The position numbers and the translations under genes are program-made. From Calditrichota bacterium (lineage in GTDB: Bacteria > Electryoneota > B3-LCP): DNA of 44,245 nucleotides. The stretch lies in NCBI GenBank assembly GCA_020051775.1, contig JAGVQJ010000067.1, positions 1 through 44,245 of the forward strand, in the 5' to 3' direction. Shown piece by piece: positions 3,578-15,075 of the stretch (its first letter is position 1; every line of letters begins with the position of its first letter). The notes beneath the pieces are model-generated. The model ran no database searches. It saw only the letters and a list, made by a program, of their open reading frames with translations, and had not been told where the DNA came from.

Positions 3578-4210
3578 ATGAGTAACTTCATATTAAGAAC
3601 CAATCGAATTTCGCGTGGCGGGCTTCTCCTACTGTGGTTATTCATCTGTCTCGCTACAACGGGGTTCCTCTACGCCCAGGAAAAAGCTATGGACACCATC
3701 GAGACTCAGGGATTAGTCAAGGCGGGCGATAAGTCTTTAACCCTGATGGGACCGCAATTGCAGATCGGCCAGAAATTACCGGAAGCCATCTTAGTGGACA
3801 ATGCGATGAAAGAAGAGATGCTCGCCGAACATTTCGGCAAGGTATTGATCATCGCCACGGTACCTTCACTGGATACGAAAGTATGTGCGACGGAGACGAG
3901 GCGCTTTAATCAGGAAGCTTCCGGCATGGGCCCGGACGTTCAGATCCTGGTTATTTCCAATGACTTGCCGTACGCGCAGAGACGGTACTGTGCGGCGGAA
4001 GGGATTGACCGGGTGAAAACGTTGTCTGATTATCGCGGCCAACAGTTCGGCCGATCGGCTGGGCTTTTCGTAAAAGAAACCTACCTTTTGGTCCGCGCGG
4101 TAATCGTAGCCGACCGCCAGGGAATCGTCCGTTATCTCCAGATTGTACCGGTAGCGGGCCAGGAACCGGATTACGCACCGGTTTTGCAGGCTGCGAGGTC
4201 ACTCCTGTGA
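3578..4210 (+). CDS. tpx: Thiol peroxidase (Tpx), with N-terminal export signal
   Basis: Tpx reduces hydroperoxides using thioredoxin. The peroxidatic cysteine lies in PSLDTKVCATETRRFN (Cys about 103) and the resolving cysteine in DLPYAQRRYCAAEGIDRVKT (Cys about 138), with the 34-35-residue spacing typical of atypical 2-Cys Tpx. Starting at ATG 3578 the protein has a basic N terminus followed by a hydrophobic segment (GGLLLLWLFICLATTGFLYA, about residues 14-33) resembling a signal peptide with cleavage near LYA-QEK. An upstream in-frame start inside dciA would hide that signal and is less likely. Well-studied Tpx proteins are cytoplasmic and about 165-170 residues, so the extra ~40 residues are notable. 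Confidence 0.9.
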   Translation: MSNFILRTNRISRGGLLLLWLFICLATTGFLYAQEKAMDTIETQGLVKAGDKSLTLMGPQLQIGQKLPEAILVDNAMKEEMLAEHFGKVLIIATVPSLDTKVCATETRRFNQEASGMGPDVQILVISNDLPYAQRRYCAAEGIDRVKTLSDYRGQQFGRSAGLFVKETYLLVRAVIVADRQGIVRYLQIVPVAGQEPDYAPVLQAARSLL

Positions 4211-7373: not shown

Positions 7374-9383
7374 ATGCCCAAAAACAATTCCAAAGACGAA
7401 GTCATCGAACAAGAAAAATACTCTGCTGAACAGATCACGGTCTTAAAGGGTCTGGAGGCGGTGCGCAAGCGCCCGGCCATGTACATCGGCGACGTCTCTT
7501 CGCGCGGGTTGCACCACCTGGTGTACGAGGTGGTGGACAACGCCGTGGACGAAGCCATGGCCGGCCACGCCACGGAAATCGAAGTCACCCTGAAGCCGGA
7601 TGGATCCGCCGAAGTCTTCGACAACGGCCGCGGCATCCCCGTGGACATGCACAAGACCGAAGGGATTTCCGCCCTGGAAGTGGTCATGACCATGCTGCAT
7701 GCCGGCGGCAAATTCGACAAGCAGAGCTACAAGGTGTCCGGCGGTCTGCACGGCGTGGGCGTATCCGTCGTCAATGCGCTGTCCGAATGGTTGTGGGCCG
7801 AGGTCTGCCGCGACGGGAAGCTTTACCGACAGAGCTACCAGCGGGGCTTGGCCGACGCTCCGGTCAAGCAGACCGGCAAGTGCGCCCAGCGAGGCACGCG
7901 GGTGCGTTTCATGCCGGATTCCGAAGTTTTCAAGACCACGCAATTAAGTTTTGACACGGTGTGCACGCGGTTGCGCGAGCTGGCCTTCCTGAACAGCGGC
8001 CTGAAGATCACCGCCAGGGATGAGCGTCAAGAAGAACCAGTCGAGAACGTTTTCCAGTACAAGGGCGGGCTGGCAGCTTTCGTCGCTTATCTGGATGAAT
8101 CCCGTCAGGCCATCCAGCCGCAGCCGATCATCGTCAGCGGCGACAAAGACAACGTCTATGTGGACGCCGCGTTTCAATACAATGACTCCTACCAGGAAAA
8201 CATCTTCACCTACGTGAACAACATCTACACCCTGGAAGGCGGCAGCCACTTGTCCGGCTTCAAGACCGCGCTGACCCGGACGCTGAACAATTACGCCATC
8301 AAGAACAACCTGTTCAAGAATGAGAAATTCACCCTGTCAGGCGAAGACACGCGCGAGGGTTTGACGGTCGTGCTCTCCGTCAAAGTGCCCGAACCGCAAT
8401 TCGAAGGCCAGACCAAAACCCGGCTGGGCAATTCCGAGGTCAAGGGGATTGTCGAGTCGGTCATCGGCGAACGCCTGGCCGAATTCATGGAGGAGCGGCC
8501 CGGCATCGCCCGGCGCATCATCGAAAAGTGTACGTCCGCCGCACGCGCTCGCGAGGCGGCCCGTAAGGCCAAAGATCTGGTGCGGCGCCGCGGCGCGTTG
8601 GAATCGGGATCACTGCCCGGCAAGCTGGCGGATTGTTCCATCAACGAACCGGATCACTGCGAACTGTTCCTGGTAGAGGGCGATTCCGCCGGTGGATCGG
8701 CCAAGCAGGGCCGCGACCGCCGCTTCCAGGCGATCCTGCCGCTCCGGGGCAAAATCCTGAACGTCGAGAAGGCGCGCCTTGACAAGATCCTCTCCAACGA
8801 GGAGATCCACACGATCATCCAAGCCATCGGCACGGGAATTGGCGAAGAGGAAAAAGAGGAAGTCGAAGGCGCGGAAAATGGCCACGGCAACGGCAATGGC
8901 AACGGAGCGGACAGCTTCAATTTCAACCTGGACCGCTTACGGTACGGCAAGATCATCATCATGACCGATGCGGATGTGGATGGGGCGCACATTCGTACTC
9001 TGTTGCTGACGTTCTTCTTCCGCCACATGCGCAAATTGGTGGAGACGGGTCACGTCTTTATCGCGCAACCACCGCTATACCGCGTCAAGAAGGGCAAGGA
9101 AGAATATTACGTATACGACGAGCGTGAACGCGAGGACGTGATGAAGCGCATGGGGGGATCTTCGGGCGTGCAGACGCAACGCTACAAGGGTTTGGGCGAG
9201 ATGAATCCCGAGCAACTCTGGGCCACTACCATGGATCCTGAACGCCGCACCGTTATGCGCGTGGAACTGGAAGACGCCGCCATTGCCGATCACATGTTTA
9301 CGACGCTGATGGGCGATGAAGTCGAACCGCGCCGCGCTTTTATAGAACAAAACGCGCGTTACGTCAAGAATTTGGATGTGTAA
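7374..9383 (+). CDS. gyrB: DNA gyrase subunit B
   Basis: GyrB is the ATPase subunit of gyrase, which introduces negative supercoils. Seen in order: the GHKL ATP-binding domain (EVVDNAVDEAMAG, DNGRGIPVDM, GGLHGVGVSVVNALS), the transducer, the TOPRIM domain (LVEGDSAGGSAKQGRDR near residue 435; MTDADVDGAHIRTL near 530), and the C-terminal tail (QRYKGLGEMNPEQLW). The 669-residue length is near the short-form GyrB typical outside enterics. A small Gly/Asn-rich insertion (NGHGNGNGNGADS, about 501-515) interrupts the TOPRIM region. It is separated from gyrA by 5.7 kb of accessory genes. Confidence 0.97.
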   Translation: MPKNNSKDEVIEQEKYSAEQITVLKGLEAVRKRPAMYIGDVSSRGLHHLVYEVVDNAVDEAMAGHATEIEVTLKPDGSAEVFDNGRGIPVDMHKTEGISALEVVMTMLHAGGKFDKQSYKVSGGLHGVGVSVVNALSEWLWAEVCRDGKLYRQSYQRGLADAPVKQTGKCAQRGTRVRFMPDSEVFKTTQLSFDTVCTRLRELAFLNSGLKITARDERQEEPVENVFQYKGGLAAFVAYLDESRQAIQPQPIIVSGDKDNVYVDAAFQYNDSYQENIFTYVNNIYTLEGGSHLSGFKTALTRTLNNYAIKNNLFKNEKFTLSGEDTREGLTVVLSVKVPEPQFEGQTKTRLGNSEVKGIVESVIGERLAEFMEERPGIARRIIEKCTSAARAREAARKAKDLVRRRGALESGSLPGKLADCSINEPDHCELFLVEGDSAGGSAKQGRDRRFQAILPLRGKILNVEKARLDKILSNEEIHTIIQAIGTGIGEEEKEEVEGAENGHGNGNGNGADSFNFNLDRLRYGKIIIMTDADVDGAHIRTLLLTFFFRHMRKLVETGHVFIAQPPLYRVKKGKEEYYVYDEREREDVMKRMGGSSGVQTQRYKGLGEMNPEQLWATTMDPERRTVMRVELEDAAIADHMFTTLMGDEVEPRRAFIEQNARYVKNLDV

Positions 9384-9392
9384 TATCATCCC

Positions 9393-9410
9393 GTGTGATA
9401 TGAATCACAC
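9393..9410. promoter_or_regulatory. CRP/FNR-type palindrome
   Basis: A perfect inverted repeat GTGTGAT-ATGA-ATCACAC that contains TGTGA-N6-TCACA, the consensus of Crp-family regulators. It lies 10 bp after the gyrB stop and about 160 bp before the DUF3800 gene. No Crp/Fnr gene is in the window, so the regulator is unknown. It could alternatively be a weak gyrB terminator stem, but it lacks a T-run. Confidence 0.4.
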
Positions 9411-9570
9411 AAGTTTGCGTTGAATTAGTGTTGATTTTAAACGGAGGCATGCGCCCAGCAAATGAAGGGTGGTTTTACCCTTTAACCTGGATTGGGAGGA
9501 CTCCATCCTCGCATCCAAACCTACGACAAAATGAGCGGTTAGCTTAGGGCGGGAAGCCAAGATCAACGTG

Positions 9571-10356
9571 ATGGATGAGCGCATGTCTATGCTACTATTT
9601 TTGGAATCGAGCCGGTGGGATCGAGCCGGCACGGGGGAGTATTTCGCCACGTACGCCGGGACGGCTTTCGAAGAAACTTCGTATGGAGACTTCTGCCGTC
9701 GGCTTTTACGCTTGAAGGAGAAGTTCTTTAAGGTGTCCGGGGTGGCGCAGTACGAACTTCAGGGTCGGCACCTGTTGAACACTCGAGCGCTGGCCACCGG
9801 CTATCGCAAAGTTGAATTCGTGCGTGAAATGCTCAGCCTGTGCCGGATGCAGAAGGTGGTGAGCTTTGCCGCGACGCGATTATTTACAGCTGCGGAGCAG
9901 AATCAGTTCGCAGGCCAAGGGCATATACCGATGGCGGGTGGGGCTATTTCCCAAAACGACCAGTTCGGTTCGCAATCGGTGTCCGTTCTGTTGGCTTGGC
10001 TGGTGGAACGCGCCAACTGTTTCATGTTGGAGATTCACCCCGGCGACCAGGCCAAGCTGATATTCAAGACGCAGGATGCGAAGCAGGATTTTCTGCTTTG
10101 TTCAGGCGTCATGAATTTTTTCTATCGCACACCGTTTGGAGGAGGTTTTCACGGCATCCTGGGATCGCCTCTGCTGATGCCCACACCCTTGTCGCCGGGT
10201 TTGCAAGTGGCGGACATTTTCGCCTACGTGGTGAATCAGCACTATGCCGGACGCCGCGACCTTAACGACCTGTTCGCCGAAATCGAGGAGATGCAGTACG
10301 TTTCCAGCATCGAACGCGATGAGTTTCAATTGCGGGGGATGAATTTGCTGGAATGA
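9571..10356 (+). CDS. DUF3800-family protein
   Basis: DUF3800 proteins have an RNase-H-like fold and are frequent in defence and mobile regions; their activity is largely uncharacterised. This 261-residue protein begins with a strand at the expected place (SMLLFLESSRW), has the middle YELQGRHLL and VVSFAATRLF segments, and ends with LQVADIFAYVVNQHY, matching the family's C-terminal Q-x-A-D-x-x-A motif. The usual N-terminal F-x-D-E-S is here FLESS, so the first catalytic-type Asp seems lost. The start is uncertain: GTG 9568, ATG 9571 and ATG 9583 are all in frame, and the last would place the first strand right at the N terminus. Confidence 0.6.
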   Translation: MDERMSMLLFLESSRWDRAGTGEYFATYAGTAFEETSYGDFCRRLLRLKEKFFKVSGVAQYELQGRHLLNTRALATGYRKVEFVREMLSLCRMQKVVSFAATRLFTAAEQNQFAGQGHIPMAGGAISQNDQFGSQSVSVLLAWLVERANCFMLEIHPGDQAKLIFKTQDAKQDFLLCSGVMNFFYRTPFGGGFHGILGSPLLMPTPLSPGLQVADIFAYVVNQHYAGRRDLNDLFAEIEEMQYVSSIERDEFQLRGMNLLE

Positions 10357-10386
10357 GGCCGGGTTGTCGAACTTGCCTTGGGAGGG

Positions 10387-10425
10387 AGGCGCTGTTCGCT
10401 CGGTGTGGGAGGCGGAGCAGCGCCT
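10387..10425. repeat. Inverted repeat AGGCGCTG/CAGCGCCT with long loop
   Basis: Perfect 8-bp arms (10387-10394 and 10418-10425) enclose a 23-bp loop. It is followed at about 10440-10480 by a stretch I would expect to be a dispersed repeat, judging by its G/C-rich, non-coding composition. It lies on the path of the minus-strand promoter at 10509-10537. Confidence 0.45.
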
Positions 10426-10508
10426 TCGTGCGTCATAAAAACGGGGTAGCGGTCCGCCTTGCGACAGATTAGCGCGACCGATCAGGCCGTGCCCGCAACC
10501 CCGAGTAC

Positions 10509-10537
10509 AATATAAGCAAAAAAAAGGGGATTGTCAA
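10509..10537 (-). promoter_or_regulatory. Strong sigma70-type promoter on minus strand
   Basis: Read on the minus strand: TTGACA (10532-10537), 17-bp spacer, TATATT (10509-10514), followed by GT. The same hexamers and spacing occur at 35521-35549, also minus strand. No minus-strand gene lies downstream; a transcript would run through the palindromic 10380-10480 region and antisense into the DUF3800 gene. Confidence 0.6.
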
Positions 10538-10547
10538 GAGGCTTGCA

Positions 10548-10826
10548 GTGGCGGACAAGGAAATAGACAGTCTGGATTTGATTCCCAAAGATACGACACT
10601 GGAGGCTTATCGCTTCCTGATTCAAGTCTGGAGACGACTCGGACCCGAAGGACGTCTTCGCGTTTCCTTTGAAGCCAGCAACAGATTGCACGAGTTGTCC
10701 GCTGCTGGTGTTCGAAGGCGACATCCCAGCTACTCGGATGATCAAATGCAATTGGCGGTCACCAAACTGATGCTTGGCGAGGAAGTCTTCAGGAAGCTCC
10801 TGCCAGACATGGAGATAGAAGTGTGA
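10548..10826 (+). CDS. Conserved small protein coupled to a nucleotidyltransferase
   Basis: A 92-residue, mostly helical protein. I do not recognise a named family, but the pattern LEAYRFLIQVWRRLGPEGR, then VSFEASNRLHELSAAGVRRRHP and MLGEEVFRKLLP looks like a conserved small protein seen beside AbiEii-like nucleotidyltransferases. It starts with GTG at 10548 (AGAGG at about 10538-10542) and overlaps the nucleotidyltransferase gene by 4 bp (GTGA), so the two are translationally coupled. By analogy with AbiE and MntA/HepT this may be a two-component toxin-antitoxin or abortive-infection module; that is inference. Confidence 0.6.
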   Translation: MADKEIDSLDLIPKDTTLEAYRFLIQVWRRLGPEGRLRVSFEASNRLHELSAAGVRRRHPSYSDDQMQLAVTKLMLGEEVFRKLLPDMEIEV

Positions 10827-11401
10827 ATGATTTTCAGGCATTTCTAACTCGAATCATTACCGCCCTTGAGAAAGCTGGTATTCCTTATCTGATTACAGGC
10901 TCCGTCGGCAGCAGTCTATATGGTGAACCTCGCGCAACACGAGATATTGATTTTATCATTGCGCCAACCGAGGTACAGTTAAAGAACTTTATCTCAGAGG
11001 TGGAAACGGATTACTACGCCAATCTGGATTCGGCTCTGGAGGCATTTCGAAATCGCTCCATGTTTAATGTGATCGAAGGAGCCACCGGATGGAAAGCTGA
11101 TTTGATCCTGGTGAAAAATTCCCCCTATGAAAAAGAGAAGTTCAAGCGCCGCCTTATAAACGTCTATCAGGATGTTTCCATCGTCGTGGCCACACCCGAA
11201 GACATGATTCTGAGCAAATTGGTGTGGGCCAGAGCGAGTATGTCTGAAATGCAATTGCGAGATGTATTAGGAATAGTCGTTACTCAGAAAGAACGGTTGG
11301 ATCGAGCCTACCTAACTCGATGGGCCAAATCGTTGGGAGTGAATGATACATTAGAGAAGATCCTGGTGGAAGCGCAAAAGGTGTGGGGAGAAATAGGATA
11401 G
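10823..11401 (+). CDS. AbiEii/DUF6036-like nucleotidyltransferase
   Basis: The 192-residue protein has a polymerase-beta-type nucleotidyltransferase fold: ITGSVGSSLYGEPRATRDID supplies the G-S motif (about residues 26-27), the conserved R-x-T-R and the metal-binding D41-x-D43; a third acidic residue is in GWKADLIL (Asp about 94). The ATPEDMILSKLVWAR segment is typical of AbiEii/DUF6036 proteins. Such enzymes can modify tRNA or proteins and act as toxins or antitoxins. It starts at GTG 10823, overlapping the upstream small gene. The next gene (DUF433) begins 38 bp after its stop. Confidence 0.75.
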   Translation: MNDFQAFLTRIITALEKAGIPYLITGSVGSSLYGEPRATRDIDFIIAPTEVQLKNFISEVETDYYANLDSALEAFRNRSMFNVIEGATGWKADLILVKNSPYEKEKFKRRLINVYQDVSIVVATPEDMILSKLVWARASMSEMQLRDVLGIVVTQKERLDRAYLTRWAKSLGVNDTLEKILVEAQKVWGEIG

Positions 11402-11439
11402 GCAGAAGCATAAGATATCCCATAACCGAAGGAATAGAG

Positions 11440-11652
11440 ATGCTGAAAAATTGGACTCGAATAATCTGTGATCCCAAAATGATGGACGGCAAACCCTTCA
11501 TCCGCGGTTCGAGCATCACGGTGGGGACGATTGTGGATTTGGCTTCCACGGGGACTACCACCGCGGACATCATCAAAATCCATCCGGATTTGGAAACAGA
11601 AGACGTCAAGGAAGCATTGTGGTCTGCGGGTAGGCAGGAAGTCAAACCCTGA
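11440..11652 (+). CDS. DUF433 protein, antitoxin-like
   Basis: A 70-residue protein with the DUF433 pattern: IICDPKMMDGKPFIRGSSIT then VGTIVDLASTGTTTADIIKI and DLETEDVKEALWSAG. The family has a winged or homeodomain-like helical fold and is often the antitoxin for a DUF5615 (PIN-like) toxin. The toxin gene is absent; a hairpin and then the MntA/HepT module follow. ATG 11440 with AAGGAA at 11429-11434 is the best start; an earlier in-frame start inside the previous gene has no support. Confidence 0.8.
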   Translation: MLKNWTRIICDPKMMDGKPFIRGSSITVGTIVDLASTGTTTADIIKIHPDLETEDVKEALWSAGRQEVKP

Positions 11653-11671
11653 CGGCTTGATTAAACTGCGC

Positions 11672-11694
11672 AGGCCGGATCAAATCGGCCTTTT
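11672..11694 (+). terminator. Short intrinsic terminator candidate
   Basis: A 6-bp stem AGGCCG / CGGCCT around an 8-bp loop, followed by TTT. It is 19 bp after the DUF433 stop and before mntA, so it would end the upstream operon. The T-run is short. Confidence 0.5.
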
Positions 11695-11746
11695 CAAGCA
11701 GTTCAAAAGGTCGCCTTGAAAGAGGTGAAACTCAGGCCATTCTCTA

Positions 11747-12037
11747 ATGAAAAAGCGAACGGAAATAGAGACGATTCTTCGGCAGCTCAAACCCGAGCTG
11801 GCGGAAAAATACCATGTCAAGGAGATCGGCATCTTCGGATCGTATGCGCGAGGAGAAGAACGGGAGGGGAGCGATGTGGATATATTGGTGACGCTTTCCG
11901 AACCGATTGGGTGGGAAATCGTGGATTTGAAAGATTTGTTGGAGGACAATCTGGGATTGCGCGTGGATTTGGCCACAATGGGAGCTATTCGACCCAAAAT
12001 GCGAACTGAAATATTAAAGGAGGTCGTTTACGCATGA
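11747..12037 (+). CDS. mntA: MntA-type nucleotidyltransferase antitoxin (copy 1)
   Basis: MntA proteins AMPylate (polyadenylylate) a tyrosine of the HEPN toxin HepT to neutralise it. The 96-residue protein has the minimal nucleotidyltransferase signature IGIFGSYARGEEREGSDVDI: Gly31-Ser32, then Asp43-x-Asp45, with the third acidic residue Asp74 in LRVDLAT. It overlaps hepT by 4 bp (ATGA) and precedes it, the standard order. This copy is only loosely similar to the second MntA at 14409 (a different N terminus and linker), so the two modules are probably not a recent duplication. Confidence 0.9.
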   Translation: MKKRTEIETILRQLKPELAEKYHVKEIGIFGSYARGEEREGSDVDILVTLSEPIGWEIVDLKDLLEDNLGLRVDLATMGAIRPKMRTEILKEVVYA

Positions 12038-12381
12038 CCAAGCGATCGGTTAAACTCTACGTGGAAGATATTCTGGTTTCGATGGAGAAGATCGAACGTT
12101 ATGTAGCCGAGAAAGGTTTTAAGCAATTAACCCAAGATGAATTACTCGTAGATGCAGTCGTCCGAAATCTGGAAATTATCGGCGAGGCATCGCGAAATGT
12201 CCCGGATGAAATCCGTTTGCAATGGCCGGAAATCCCTTGGCATCGCATGGCAGGTTTGAGGAATGTCATCATTCATCAGTATTTCGATGTGGATTTAGAA
12301 GCATTGTGGAAAGTAGTCAGCGAAAATCTACCGGAAACCAAATTGAAGATTGAAGAGATGCTGGCGAAATTTATTGAATGA
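12034..12381 (+). CDS. hepT: HepT-type HEPN RNase toxin (DUF86, copy 1)
   Basis: HepT is a HEPN ribonuclease toxin counteracted by MntA. The 115-residue helical protein carries the full RX4HXY motif in GLRNVIIHQYFDVD (Arg76, His81, Tyr83): Arg and His cleave RNA, and Tyr is the residue that MntA modifies. EIIGEASRNVP is the other conserved block. All key residues are intact, so an active toxin is expected. It is translationally coupled to mntA. Confidence 0.92.
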   Translation: MTKRSVKLYVEDILVSMEKIERYVAEKGFKQLTQDELLVDAVVRNLEIIGEASRNVPDEIRLQWPEIPWHRMAGLRNVIIHQYFDVDLEALWKVVSENLPETKLKIEEMLAKFIE

Positions 12382-12417
12382 TAAGTGGCTCGACGGCGCG
12401 GGTGCGGAGAAATAACT

Positions 12418-12630
12418 GTGCATCGATTTTTGGTTATAATAGAAAAAGCTGACGGAAATTATTCGGCCTATTCGCCGGATCTGCCGGGTTGTGTAGCTAC
12501 CGGCAAGAGCCGCCCGGCAGCCGAACGCGCCATGCACAAAGCGATCCAGATGCACCTGCACGGATTAAAAGAATACGGATTGCCTATCCCGCAGTCGCAG
12601 ACGACAGCGGAGGTTATGGCGGTGGGGTGA
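12418..12630 (+). CDS. HicB-family antitoxin (solo)
   Basis: A 70-residue protein of the partial-RNase-H HicB fold: FLVIIEKADGNYSAYSPDLP, GCVATGKSR, then AMHKAIQMHLHGLKEYGLPI. The C-terminal DNA-binding domain of full HicB is missing, as in many solo family members. I take GTG 12418 as the start because GGAGA lies 7 bp upstream; the longer frame from 12385 adds unconserved residues. No HicA toxin is adjacent. It is 36 bp after hepT copy 1 and before the SLATT/CD-NTase operon. Confidence 0.8.
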   Translation: MHRFLVIIEKADGNYSAYSPDLPGCVATGKSRPAAERAMHKAIQMHLHGLKEYGLPIPQSQTTAEVMAVG

Positions 12631-12645
12631 GGTGGAGTGGGTGTG

Positions 12646-12673
12646 ACCATTTTGCGCATTTCCGCAAAATGGT
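12646..12673. repeat. Perfect 11-bp inverted repeat
   Basis: ACCATTTTGCG (12646-12656) and CGCAAAATGGT (12663-12673) enclose a 6-nt loop. The stem is perfect but has no T-run. It sits between HicB and the SLATT operon and may be a transcription terminator, an operator or a dispersed palindrome. Confidence 0.6.
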
Positions 12674-12740
12674 GGAGGTGAAACCGCAGCGGAGGGGTGT
12701 GGGGCGCACAGGCGAGGGTATTGGAGTTAGGATATTAACT

Positions 12741-12762
12741 CACAGCAGAGCTGTGGGGCACC
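12741..12762. repeat. CACAG/CTGTG hairpin repeat, copy 1
   Basis: CACAG, a short spacer, then AGCTGTGGGGCACC. The same element with a 1-bp shorter spacer is at 34808-34828. Two copies 22 kb apart in intergenic positions suggest a dispersed repeat family. Confidence 0.55.
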
Positions 12763-12776
12763 AGGCGGAGTAGACG

Positions 12777-13319
12777 ATGAATGAAGTTAAGGAAATCCAA
12801 ACTCTTATCGCTGTGAAAAAATTACGCGTAGATTCTTTATTTGGAAAGAGAAAACACTACGCTGCCTCAAATCGAAAAAGTAAATATCACAATCGGCTTG
12901 GAATATCGGCTATAGTGCTCAATATCTTTGTCGGCTCTATTTTATTTGGGTATTTATGCGAGGCAATTCCAAATACATTTAAATGGGTTGGTGCGATAAT
13001 GGCTCTGGGATCTGCGACATTGGCGGCAATTCAAACTTTTTTTAACTTCGATAAAATGGTGGAAGGACATAGTAGAATTGCCTCCAGTTATTTGGAAATT
13101 GCTAAAGAGTGTATCAGAGTAATAGGATATTACGAGGATAATATAATTGACAAAGTAATTTTAAAAGACGAACTAGAGAAACTTGCTTTAAAATATAATA
13201 AAGCAGTTGCGGATGCAGTAGCTTTCCCAACTGAAAATAGGGATTACATAAGGGCAAAAGAAAATTTTGCGCAAGAAGAAGGTTATACAGACGCGGAGCT
13301 AAAAATTGGAGGAGTTTAA
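12777..13319 (+). CDS. SLATT-type two-transmembrane effector
   Basis: The 180-residue protein has a charged N-terminal helix, two close transmembrane helices (GISAIVLNIFVGSILFGYLC, about 42-61; WVGAIMALGSATLAAIQTFF, about 70-89) and a cytoplasmic C-terminal helical region with ASSYLEIAKECIRVIGYYED. This is the layout of SLATT domains, predicted pore-forming effectors that accompany cyclic-nucleotide synthases (SMODS/CD-NTases). The cell-killing role by membrane disruption is known or predicted for the class. It is followed immediately by a CD-NTase gene with a GGAGGAG ribosome-binding site inside its 3' end. Markedly AT-rich compared with gyrB and gyrA. Confidence 0.78.
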   Translation: MNEVKEIQTLIAVKKLRVDSLFGKRKHYAASNRKSKYHNRLGISAIVLNIFVGSILFGYLCEAIPNTFKWVGAIMALGSATLAAIQTFFNFDKMVEGHSRIASSYLEIAKECIRVIGYYEDNIIDKVILKDELEKLALKYNKAVADAVAFPTENRDYIRAKENFAQEEGYTDAELKIGGV

Positions 13320-14300
13320 ATGGAATTAGTATGTAACGCGCTAAGCACTTACATTGATCAAGAGATAAGATTGACGAAAACAGACATTTCCAGCGCCGTT
13401 AATAGTAGGGAATGGTTTTTAGCTAGAATCAAATCAGTTATTGCACAACGAAAAGACGAACCTGTCTTGTACGCCGCCGAACCATTTGTATTTTATGGCA
13501 GCTATATCAAAGGAACAAAAGTAAAGCAAGTCGATGAATTGGATATTTTAGTAGTTATAGATTCTAACCAAGGGCAGTTTACAAAGGGTGAGAATTTAAT
13601 CGGCAGTGGAATTGGAAAAGCAGATCCAAACCCGAAATATAATAATAAATACTATAAAGAAGATAATTCTGGAATAAGCCCAAATAAATTATTAAATTGG
13701 CTAAAAGGGGTAACTGAAGAAGTCATGGATCCTTACGGAGGACAAGCCCCAATAAGAAATTGTCAGGCTATAACTGCTCTTATTTCATCAAAGGATCTTC
13801 AAATCGACTTAGTTCCTGCTGGTATATTCTTACGACCAGATGATAGAGAAATATTCTATAATATCCCAAAAGGTAATCGCAATAATGGTTGGATTGAAAC
13901 TGCACCTAAATCGGATATAAATCGGCTAGTAGAAGTTTCTCAATATAAAAACAATTTTAAAAATATTATAAAAGTTATTAAAAATATTAAGGACAAATAC
14001 AATTTTCTCGTTAGTTCATTTGCTTTAGAAAGTGCTGTAGTGGATTATGGAGAGACCCATTATTGGTATAACAATTTGCATTGGGATCTTCAAGAGACTT
14101 TAAGATATTTAAGTGGAGTATTTAAAAACGGTCGAGTAAATGATCCATTAAGTGGTTCAAACCTATTAGATGGAGTTGAGAACCTAACTTGGTACGCTGA
14201 TAGACTCGAGAATATCTTAAGTGCATTTGACAATTGCTTAAGCCAAACTGATCAAAATAAGGTATATAACGATCTAAAAAATATTTTAAATAATGTTTGA
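13320..14300 (+). CDS. CD-NTase / cGAS-like nucleotidyltransferase (CBASS signal synthase)
   Basis: The 326-residue enzyme probably makes a cyclic oligonucleotide that activates the adjacent SLATT protein. Active-site features: FYGSYIKGTKVKQVDELDIL gives Gly60-Ser61 and the metal pair Glu73-x-Asp75 (with Asp72 just before), and LQIDLVPAG gives the third acid, Asp163. The E-L-D form, the K-V-K spacing and the DLVPA strand recall cGAS/Mab21-type enzymes. The C-terminal helical half (about 215-326) is divergent. The ATG at 13320 directly follows the SLATT stop, with GGAGGAG at 13308-13314. No cap2/cap3 regulators are present, consistent with a minimal (type I) CBASS. The product nucleotide cannot be predicted. 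Confidence 0.8.
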   Translation: MELVCNALSTYIDQEIRLTKTDISSAVNSREWFLARIKSVIAQRKDEPVLYAAEPFVFYGSYIKGTKVKQVDELDILVVIDSNQGQFTKGENLIGSGIGKADPNPKYNNKYYKEDNSGISPNKLLNWLKGVTEEVMDPYGGQAPIRNCQAITALISSKDLQIDLVPAGIFLRPDDREIFYNIPKGNRNNGWIETAPKSDINRLVEVSQYKNNFKNIIKVIKNIKDKYNFLVSSFALESAVVDYGETHYWYNNLHWDLQETLRYLSGVFKNGRVNDPLSGSNLLDGVENLTWYADRLENILSAFDNCLSQTDQNKVYNDLKNILNNV

Positions 14301-14328
14301 ATGCAGTCGAATATCCTATTTCTAGGGC

Positions 14329-14385
14329 GTCATGGACCATTCCATGACACCGCCGGAACCAGTGGCACGGTATGGACCGTGCCAC
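14329..14385. terminator. Twin perfect hairpins after the CD-NTase gene
   Basis: Hairpin 1 has arms GTCATGGA/TCCATGAC (14329-14348, 4-nt loop); hairpin 2 has arms GTGGCACGGT/ACCGTGCCAC (14362-14385, 4-nt loop). Both are perfect. They lie between the CBASS-like operon and the second mntA. They could end transcription or be dispersed palindromes; no clear T-run follows. Confidence 0.6.
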
Positions 14386-14408
14386 CCCAGAGAATGGCAT
14401 AATGTATT

Positions 14409-14699
14409 ATGAGAATTGAACAACAATTAAAATCCAGCCGCCTGGCCATCCTTCGTCTCGCCGCACAGCATGGCGCACGGAATGTGCGCATTTTCGGATC
14501 GGTGGCTCGGGGAGAGGCTGACGAACGCAGCGATGTTGACTTCCTGGTGGAAATGGAGCCGGGGCGAAGTCTATTCGATATGGGCGGTCTGCTGATGGAT
14601 CTGCGCGAGTTGCTGGGCCGAGATGTAGATGTTGTGACAGAGCGGGGGTTAAAACAACGTATCCGTGAGCGGGTATTGCGGGAGGCAATCCCACTATGA
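14409..14699 (+). CDS. mntA: MntA-type nucleotidyltransferase antitoxin (copy 2)
   Basis: A second 96-residue Mnt[21 protein letters not shown] contains Gly30-Ser31 and Asp42-x-Asp44; the third acid is in [11 protein letters not shown] (Asp74). It should AMPylate the HepT partner that overlaps it by 4 bp (ATGA at 14696). The start ATG 14409 lies 24 bp after the second hairpin. Its GC content is closer to the chromosomal genes than the CBASS operon beside it. Confidence 0.9.
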
Positions 14700-15031
14700 G
14701 AGATCCAAAGGAACGGTTGCAAGATATTCTAGATGCCATTGTCAGGATCGAACGTTATGCAGTACAAGGCAAAGCGGCATTCGAAGATGATGAACTGGTT
14801 CAAAATTGGATTGTCCGGCATCTCCAAATAATAGGAGAAGCATCACGAGTTTTACCTGACGATCTCAAAAAACAAGCTCCGGCTGTGCCGTGGTCAAAGA
14901 TTATTGGAATGCGGCACATCATTGTCCACGATTATTTCTATATTGATTTTGATGTCGTTTGGGAAGCGGTCGAGAAAGATTTGCCCTTTCTTCGCGATGA
15001 AATCAATAATATCCTTAAACGACTAGATTAA
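14696..15031 (+). CDS. hepT: HepT-type HEPN RNase toxin (DUF86, copy 2)
   Basis: The 111-residue HEPN toxin partner of MntA copy 2. The catalytic motif RX4HXY is intact in [14 protein letters not shown] (Arg73, His78, Tyr80), and the [12 protein letters not shown] block is conserved. It ends 44 bp before gyrA; the gap is filled by a heptamer repeat array. Similarity to HepT copy 1 is clear in motifs but modest elsewhere, suggesting independent acquisition or old divergence. Confidence 0.92.
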
Positions 15032-15040
15032 TCTCATCAA

Positions 15041-15075
15041 CTAACCACTAACCCCTAATCCCTAACGACTAATTT
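15041..15075. repeat. Heptamer tandem array (CTAAYNN)5 abutting gyrA start
   Basis: Five consecutive 7-bp units share the core CTAA (for example CTAACCA and CTAACCC), filling 15041-15075 exactly up to the gyrA ATG at 15076. Degenerate heptamer arrays of this style resemble the short tandemly repeated repetitive (STRR) sequences known from cyanobacteria. The array replaces any Shine-Dalgarno for gyrA. Confidence 0.75.

Follow-up and report, generated by a model that had tools for sequence, protein, structure and literature searches.

The gyrB–gyrA interval of a Calditrichota bacterium contig (JAGVQJ010000067.1; the whole analysed stretch of 44,245 nucleotides is here called the window) contains two adjacent genes, coding for a membrane protein of SLATT family 4 and for a CD-NTase, and this cassette is likely to be a type I (two-gene) CBASS phage-defence system. 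The kind of system is already known; the cyclase of the window, judged from its sequence, is an unusually divergent member. The cassette is probably a real and functional minimal CBASS, in line with its first reading as a CBASS-like operon pared down to a SLATT effector and its cyclase, and this agrees with the family models, the predicted fold and a neighbourhood pattern that recurs in other genomes. It would add a very divergent two-gene CBASS with an effector of the SLATT_4 class.

Gene layout of the cassette

The features of the region are the following.

7374–9383: gyrB
9384–15075: gyrB–gyrA interval, containing orf9568, an AbiEii/DUF6036-like NTase (10823–11401), a DUF433 gene, two MNT/HepT pairs and a HicB-like gene
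12736–12770, no strand: REP-like palindrome CACAGCAGAGCTGTGGGGCACC, immediately preceding the SLATT gene, with at least eight further copies in the genome
12777–13319, plus strand: SLATT family 4 protein, putative membrane effector, 180 aa (ORF, family models, hydropathy)
13308–13319, plus strand: strong GGAGGAG ribosome-binding site of the cyclase, within the 3′ end of the SLATT gene (direct reading)
13320–14300, plus strand: CD-NTase (oligonucleotide cyclase), 326 aa, with GS / E73-x-D75 / D163 (ORF, PDLC00802, AF2, Foldseek)
14329–14387, no strand: double hairpin GTCATGGACCATTCCATGAC ... TGGCACGGTATGGACCGTGCCACC, directly after the cyclase gene, with two more copies in the genome
15076–17610: gyrA, with the cassette lying between it and gyrB

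Two tightly coupled, AT-rich genes had been described here from the sequence alone, and their coordinates, junction and composition are as claimed. Read directly, the SLATT stop codon (TAA, 13317–13319) abuts the cyclase ATG at 13320; the two genes are therefore likely co-translated. When the region was shuffled 2000 times at the mononucleotide level, the longest stop-free run was of 132 codons (mean 61.5), so that the 326-codon cyclase frame is not a product of chance, and neither ORF owes its length to chance. GC content is 0.355 in the SLATT gene and 0.332 in the cyclase gene, with 0.59 in gyrA/gyrB; at third codon positions the corresponding values are 0.28, 0.25 and 0.77. From this composition, the AT-rich cassette has probably arrived here recently. 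The adjacent stop/start junction with a ribosome-binding site internal to the SLATT gene, the foreign base composition and the location among toxin–antitoxin genes all argue for the CBASS reading.

The cassette is flanked by HicB-like, MNT and HepT genes. The absence of cap2/cap3 accessory genes, already remarked on, is borne out by family models and translations, which revealed no Cap2/Cap3, HORMA, TRIP13 or QueC-like genes among the neighbours; with no Cap2/Cap3, HORMA or TRIP13 nearby, the cassette reads as type I. The same neighbours invite the explanation that the two genes form an addiction module unrelated to phages, resembling the adjacent MNT/HepT pairs, in which the nucleotidyltransferase controls a membrane toxin. 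Indeed, the cassette sits between HicB-like and MNT/HepT genes in an interval rich in toxin–antitoxin genes; however, its nucleotidyltransferase is a full CD-NTase of 326 aa with a confident cyclase fold, as against 96 aa for the MNT, and belongs to a family whose partners in plasmids and genomes are effectors of the CBASS type, which makes such a module quite unlikely.

Sequence, fold and ancestry of the cyclase

The nucleotidyltransferase motifs first noticed, namely G-S, ELD and a third aspartate in LQIDLVPA, are all present, as G60-S61, E73-L-D75 and D163; the protein has both the nucleotidyltransferase fold and the GS / [DE]x[DE] / D metal site. The best family model is the PADLOC oligonucleotide cyclase PDLC00802 (E 2.8e-34), with a score of 116.8 bits over residues 3–276, while typical members reach 366–496 bits. 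The protein falls below the 200-bit cut-off of the NCBIfam models CBASS_cyclase_a and CBASS_cyclase_b (29.7 and 56 bits, respectively) and slightly under that of Pfam SMODS (23.6 vs 26.5), and these low scores, including that on PDLC00802, count against the CBASS reading. On the other side, the AlphaFold model, built with 46 relatives in the input, is confident (pLDDT 86.8, pTM 0.85) except for residues 86–105, and every position that is invariant in the 47-row alignment of relatives keeps its residue; a confident CD-NTase fold with its invariant residues kept argues in favour of CBASS.

The structural comparison suggested for 13320–14300 gave the CD-NTase fold: the Foldseek matches listed from the PDB are all CD-NTases (mouse cGAS, Bacteroides fragilis CdnB, Pseudomonas aeruginosa CdnD and Escherichia coli CdnC; E about 1e-11, TM 0.65–0.80), in a rank order that is uninformative, the scores being nearly equal and cGAS being present with many chains. 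A tRNA or antibiotic nucleotidyltransferase was considered and rejected, since every one of the best models is an oligonucleotide cyclase and every one of the best fold matches a CD-NTase. In the viral structure library BFVD, the cyclase model found one strong match, A0A3G5A6S9, an uncharacterised Hyperionvirus protein of 389 aa (Foldseek E 5e-10, TM 0.65), which is likely, as far as predicted models tell, to be a CD-NTase-fold protein in a giant virus.

Single-sequence phmmer searches of the PDB gave no match. When profiles were searched against solved structures, CdnD was best (4e-32), followed by 9sa4 (a CD-NTase), CdnC, the cyclic AMP-AMP-GMP synthases, cGLR1, CdnE, cGAS and, last, DncV; as to a place among clades A–H, the nearest solved structures by sequence are CdnD and then CdnC.

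Distant relatives of the cyclase are present in 913 plasmid records, mostly from Enterobacterales (tblastn); the best relatives are about 25% identical (25–26% over about 290 aa). In addition, 68 loci were fetched from a collection of species-representative genomes and three from viral contigs, 71 in all. Scans of genomes and viral contigs with peptide patterns taken from the window cyclase alone, which detect close relatives only, found no relative. In most relatives the cyclase is immediately followed by a gene of 250–330 aa with several TM segments, annotated in the plasmid records as an S-4TM pore-forming effector, and this arrangement is a further argument for CBASS. The known system of this type, a type I CBASS with CD-NTase and S-4TM (PDLC00802; e.g., QTN38_RS24270-24265 on the Enterobacter plasmid NZ_CP130343.1), has two genes, as in the window, and shares with it the broad cyclase family and the catalytic and conserved residues; however, its effector is of the 4TM type and lies downstream, whereas that of the window is a SLATT protein and lies upstream, and its cyclase relatives carry D-x-D (71 read) and score 366–496 bits, in contrast to E-x-D and 117 bits. 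The gene order of the window, effector and then cyclase, is the reverse of that in most relatives, a point against the CBASS reading.

The glutamate is peculiar to the window: D-x-D is found in 71/71 relatives and E-x-D in none, and this does not reflect selection by the genome scan, since its patterns omitted that position. With all relatives carrying D-x-D, E-x-D reads as a conservative D-to-E change. The cassette might instead be a decayed copy, its long branch and D-to-E change being signs that cyclase activity was lost; the end branch measures 4.2 changes per column, and the genome and viral contig scans returned no close relative. Both frames, however, are intact, the invariant residues are all kept, a glutamate at the metal position conforms to the signature [E/D]h[E/D]...[E/D] (PMC12424679), and other cyclases linked to SLATT_4 have E at the third position; decay is thus very unlikely.

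The E-x-D pair and the DLVPA strand had led to the proposal that the protein is closer to cGAS/Mab21 than to DncV. The profile scores agree, with E-values in profile A3 of 1e-8 for cGLR1, 1e-4 for cGAS and 0.04–0.1 for DncV, but by sequence no solved structure matches better than CdnD. The segment GSYIKGTKVKQVDELDILVVID aligns with GSYYERSKVGEPDEFDLMLVMD of cGLR1 with 12/26 identical residues, and among 47 members the window cyclase alone shows a match of any kind to Mab-21 PF03281 (15.9 bits, below the cut-off of 24.1); a search for bacterial Mab-21 in 386 genomes gave nothing over the cut-off. With a profile of cGAS, cGLR1 and Mab21L1 the window cyclase ranks first, by 0.5 bits only (the cGAS and Mab21L1 queries with which reference sequences were retrieved match the PDB chains fully over the aligned range), while animal cGLR proteins, taken singly, score other D-x-D relatives from bacteria equally high or higher. 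Likewise, the bi-lobed fold (TM about 0.72–0.74) and the E-x-D pair are common to animal cGAS/cGLR and the window cyclase, but the resemblance to cGLR is about as good in its bacterial relatives with D-x-D. As a cGAS trait, then, E-x-D is a real and unusual residue choice, but it is a conservative change and the animal proteins favour other relatives.

In the tree, the window cyclase is on a very long branch and its nearest rows are 4TM-linked cyclases; a constraint that groups it with cGLR has a cost of 1.1 log units (AU p 0.41), and one that groups it with the 4TM-linked clade a cost of 6.7 log units (AU p 0.12), values to be read with the possibility of attraction between two long branches. 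In a published tree, cGLR is nested in bacterial clade D, within the uncharacterised subclade D12 (PMC10732462). It is improbable that the cyclase represents an undescribed bacterial CD-NTase lineage near the origin of animal cGLR (cGAS), in which the cGAS-type E-x-D was already present and a SLATT pore is driven instead of STING, and the label "cGAS-type" is not established by these comparisons. If a position near D12, the published root of animal cGAS (PMC10732462), were true, the cyclase would be a test case for the origin of the active site.

The SLATT_4 effector, its partners and a proposed mechanism

The two-TM SLATT protein of the sequence-only reading was recovered by curated models: SLATT_4 NF033632 gives 106.3 bits (NCBIfam cut-off 55) and SLATT_4 PF18186 30.3 (Pfam cut-off 27), PADLOC 2TM effector models match the product of 12777–13319, and hydropathy indicates two TM segments at about residues 38–66 and 67–91. 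Membership in SLATT follows from the passed cut-offs and the two segments; the AF2 model (pLDDT 46, from three sequences) is too poor for interpretation, and the C-terminal part is helical only in that low-confidence model. The match of PADLOC cyclase and 2TM-effector models to two adjacent genes and the SLATT_4 scores above both curated cut-offs are arguments for the CBASS reading.

Among 386 genomes, seven loci have SLATT_4 above the cut-off, and a CD-NTase adjoins six of them, the window included, although at one of the six only a remnant of the CD-NTase is left. This recurrence both argues for CBASS and implies that the pairing is not new. The view that this exact pairing is little described did not hold; the association is reflected in the Pfam family name, "SMODS and SLOG-associating 2TM effector domain family 4". 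Sampling is sparse for this divergent cyclase, and not for the SLATT_4 and CD-NTase pairing. The two of these SLATT_4-linked cyclases that were tested in full, together with that of locus L006, have PDLC00823 as nearest PADLOC cluster, and in three SLATT_4-linked cyclases the third metal residue is E.

The closest effector found in plasmids (36.7%, E 3e-28) belongs to the pair SD427_RS18930-18935 of the Chryseobacterium sp. JJR-5R plasmid p1 (L007:3989–5319), which has the effector-then-cyclase order and abutting genes of the window; its cyclase, however, belongs to the PDLC00769 cluster and shows no significant blastp similarity to the window cyclase. The pairing is thus recurrent, with partners that appear to be exchanged: since the kin of the window cyclase pair with 4TM-type effectors, and the closest relative of its effector with another cyclase family, the nearest kin of each half has a different partner, and cyclases and membrane effectors seem to be reshuffled.

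At other loci (L008, L009, L085, L086 and L090) SLATT_4 has no cyclase beside it, which counts against the CBASS reading. A search of viral contigs with the window SLATT alone gave no match, and with a SLATT_4 alignment two matches, neither with a cyclase. At 3935–4444 of L085 and L086, two related viral contigs, the cyclase-free SLATT_4 gene has phage-type genes adjacent to it.

SLATT proteins were predicted to be nucleotide-responsive, pore-forming effectors by Burroughs in 2015, as cited in PMC7159879, and DRT10, a different system, needs its SLATT protein to defend against phages (PMC12632851), a requirement which also favours the CBASS reading. The CD-NTase would be silent or low in activity before infection; upon an infection cue it would make a cyclic oligonucleotide through the E73/D75/D163 metal site. 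This product would bind the SLATT protein, which may then oligomerise in the inner membrane and open or disrupt it, with growth stop or cell death ahead of phage release. Expression and activity, the identity of the signal, SLATT as receptor, pore formation and the phage trigger are parts that we infer; in studied cases, clades C and D produce cyclic trinucleotides (PMC10732462). The staphylococcal type I-B CBASS with CdnE03 and Cap15 (PMC10686824), which also consists of two genes with a two-TM effector and causes membrane damage in infected cells, provides a model for this mechanism; however, its cyclase is of clade E and its 2TM effector is a beta-barrel protein, whereas the effector of the window is SLATT. 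Among the papers searched, none reports an experiment on SLATT_4 together with a CD-NTase, which counts against the CBASS reading.

The main rival is an inhibitory logic as in Panoptes: nucleotide made constantly by the cyclase would hold the SLATT pore shut, and interference of the phage with this signal would free SLATT. Indeed, the Panoptes effector OptE, a 2TM protein, is under inhibitory control (PMC12657218), inhibition by cDNA was proposed for the DRT10 SLATT (PMC12632851), and the abutting stop and start codons with the effector first suggest a fixed stoichiometry. However, the known inhibitory synthase is mCpol and not a CD-NTase, and the CBASS cyclases studied in PMC10686824 and PMC10419184 activate their effectors; inhibitory control is therefore unlikely, and activation of SLATT by the cyclase is the preferred reading.

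Repeats and neighbouring genes in the gyrB–gyrA interval

The region 12631–12776 folds moderately better than its shuffles (z -2.6), but part of it is a palindromic repeat that is dispersed in the genome, and a structured stretch upstream, comparable to the DRT10 ncRNA, is not claimed. Rfam searches around the island gave only a snoRNA match, by chance. Among the copies of the double hairpin that follows the cyclase gene, the first stem varies in a compensating manner, ATGG/CCAT vs ACGG/CCGT.

In this bacterial family the gyrB–gyrA interval (9384–15075 in the window) is a variable site, rich in toxin–antitoxin genes, whose mix differs among relatives, although some genes are common to them. 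Neither SLATT nor CD-NTase was found in the corresponding stretch of five relatives, three of which stop short of gyrB; in G002 and G005 the gap between the NTase and MNT genes is about 150 bp, compared with 3 kb, cassette included, in the window. At 10548–11401, a gene of 92 aa overlaps the AbiEii/DUF6036-like NTase gene, and a similar small gene precedes this NTase in three relatives (L104, L105 and L106); the two are possibly an undescribed toxin–antitoxin-like pair.
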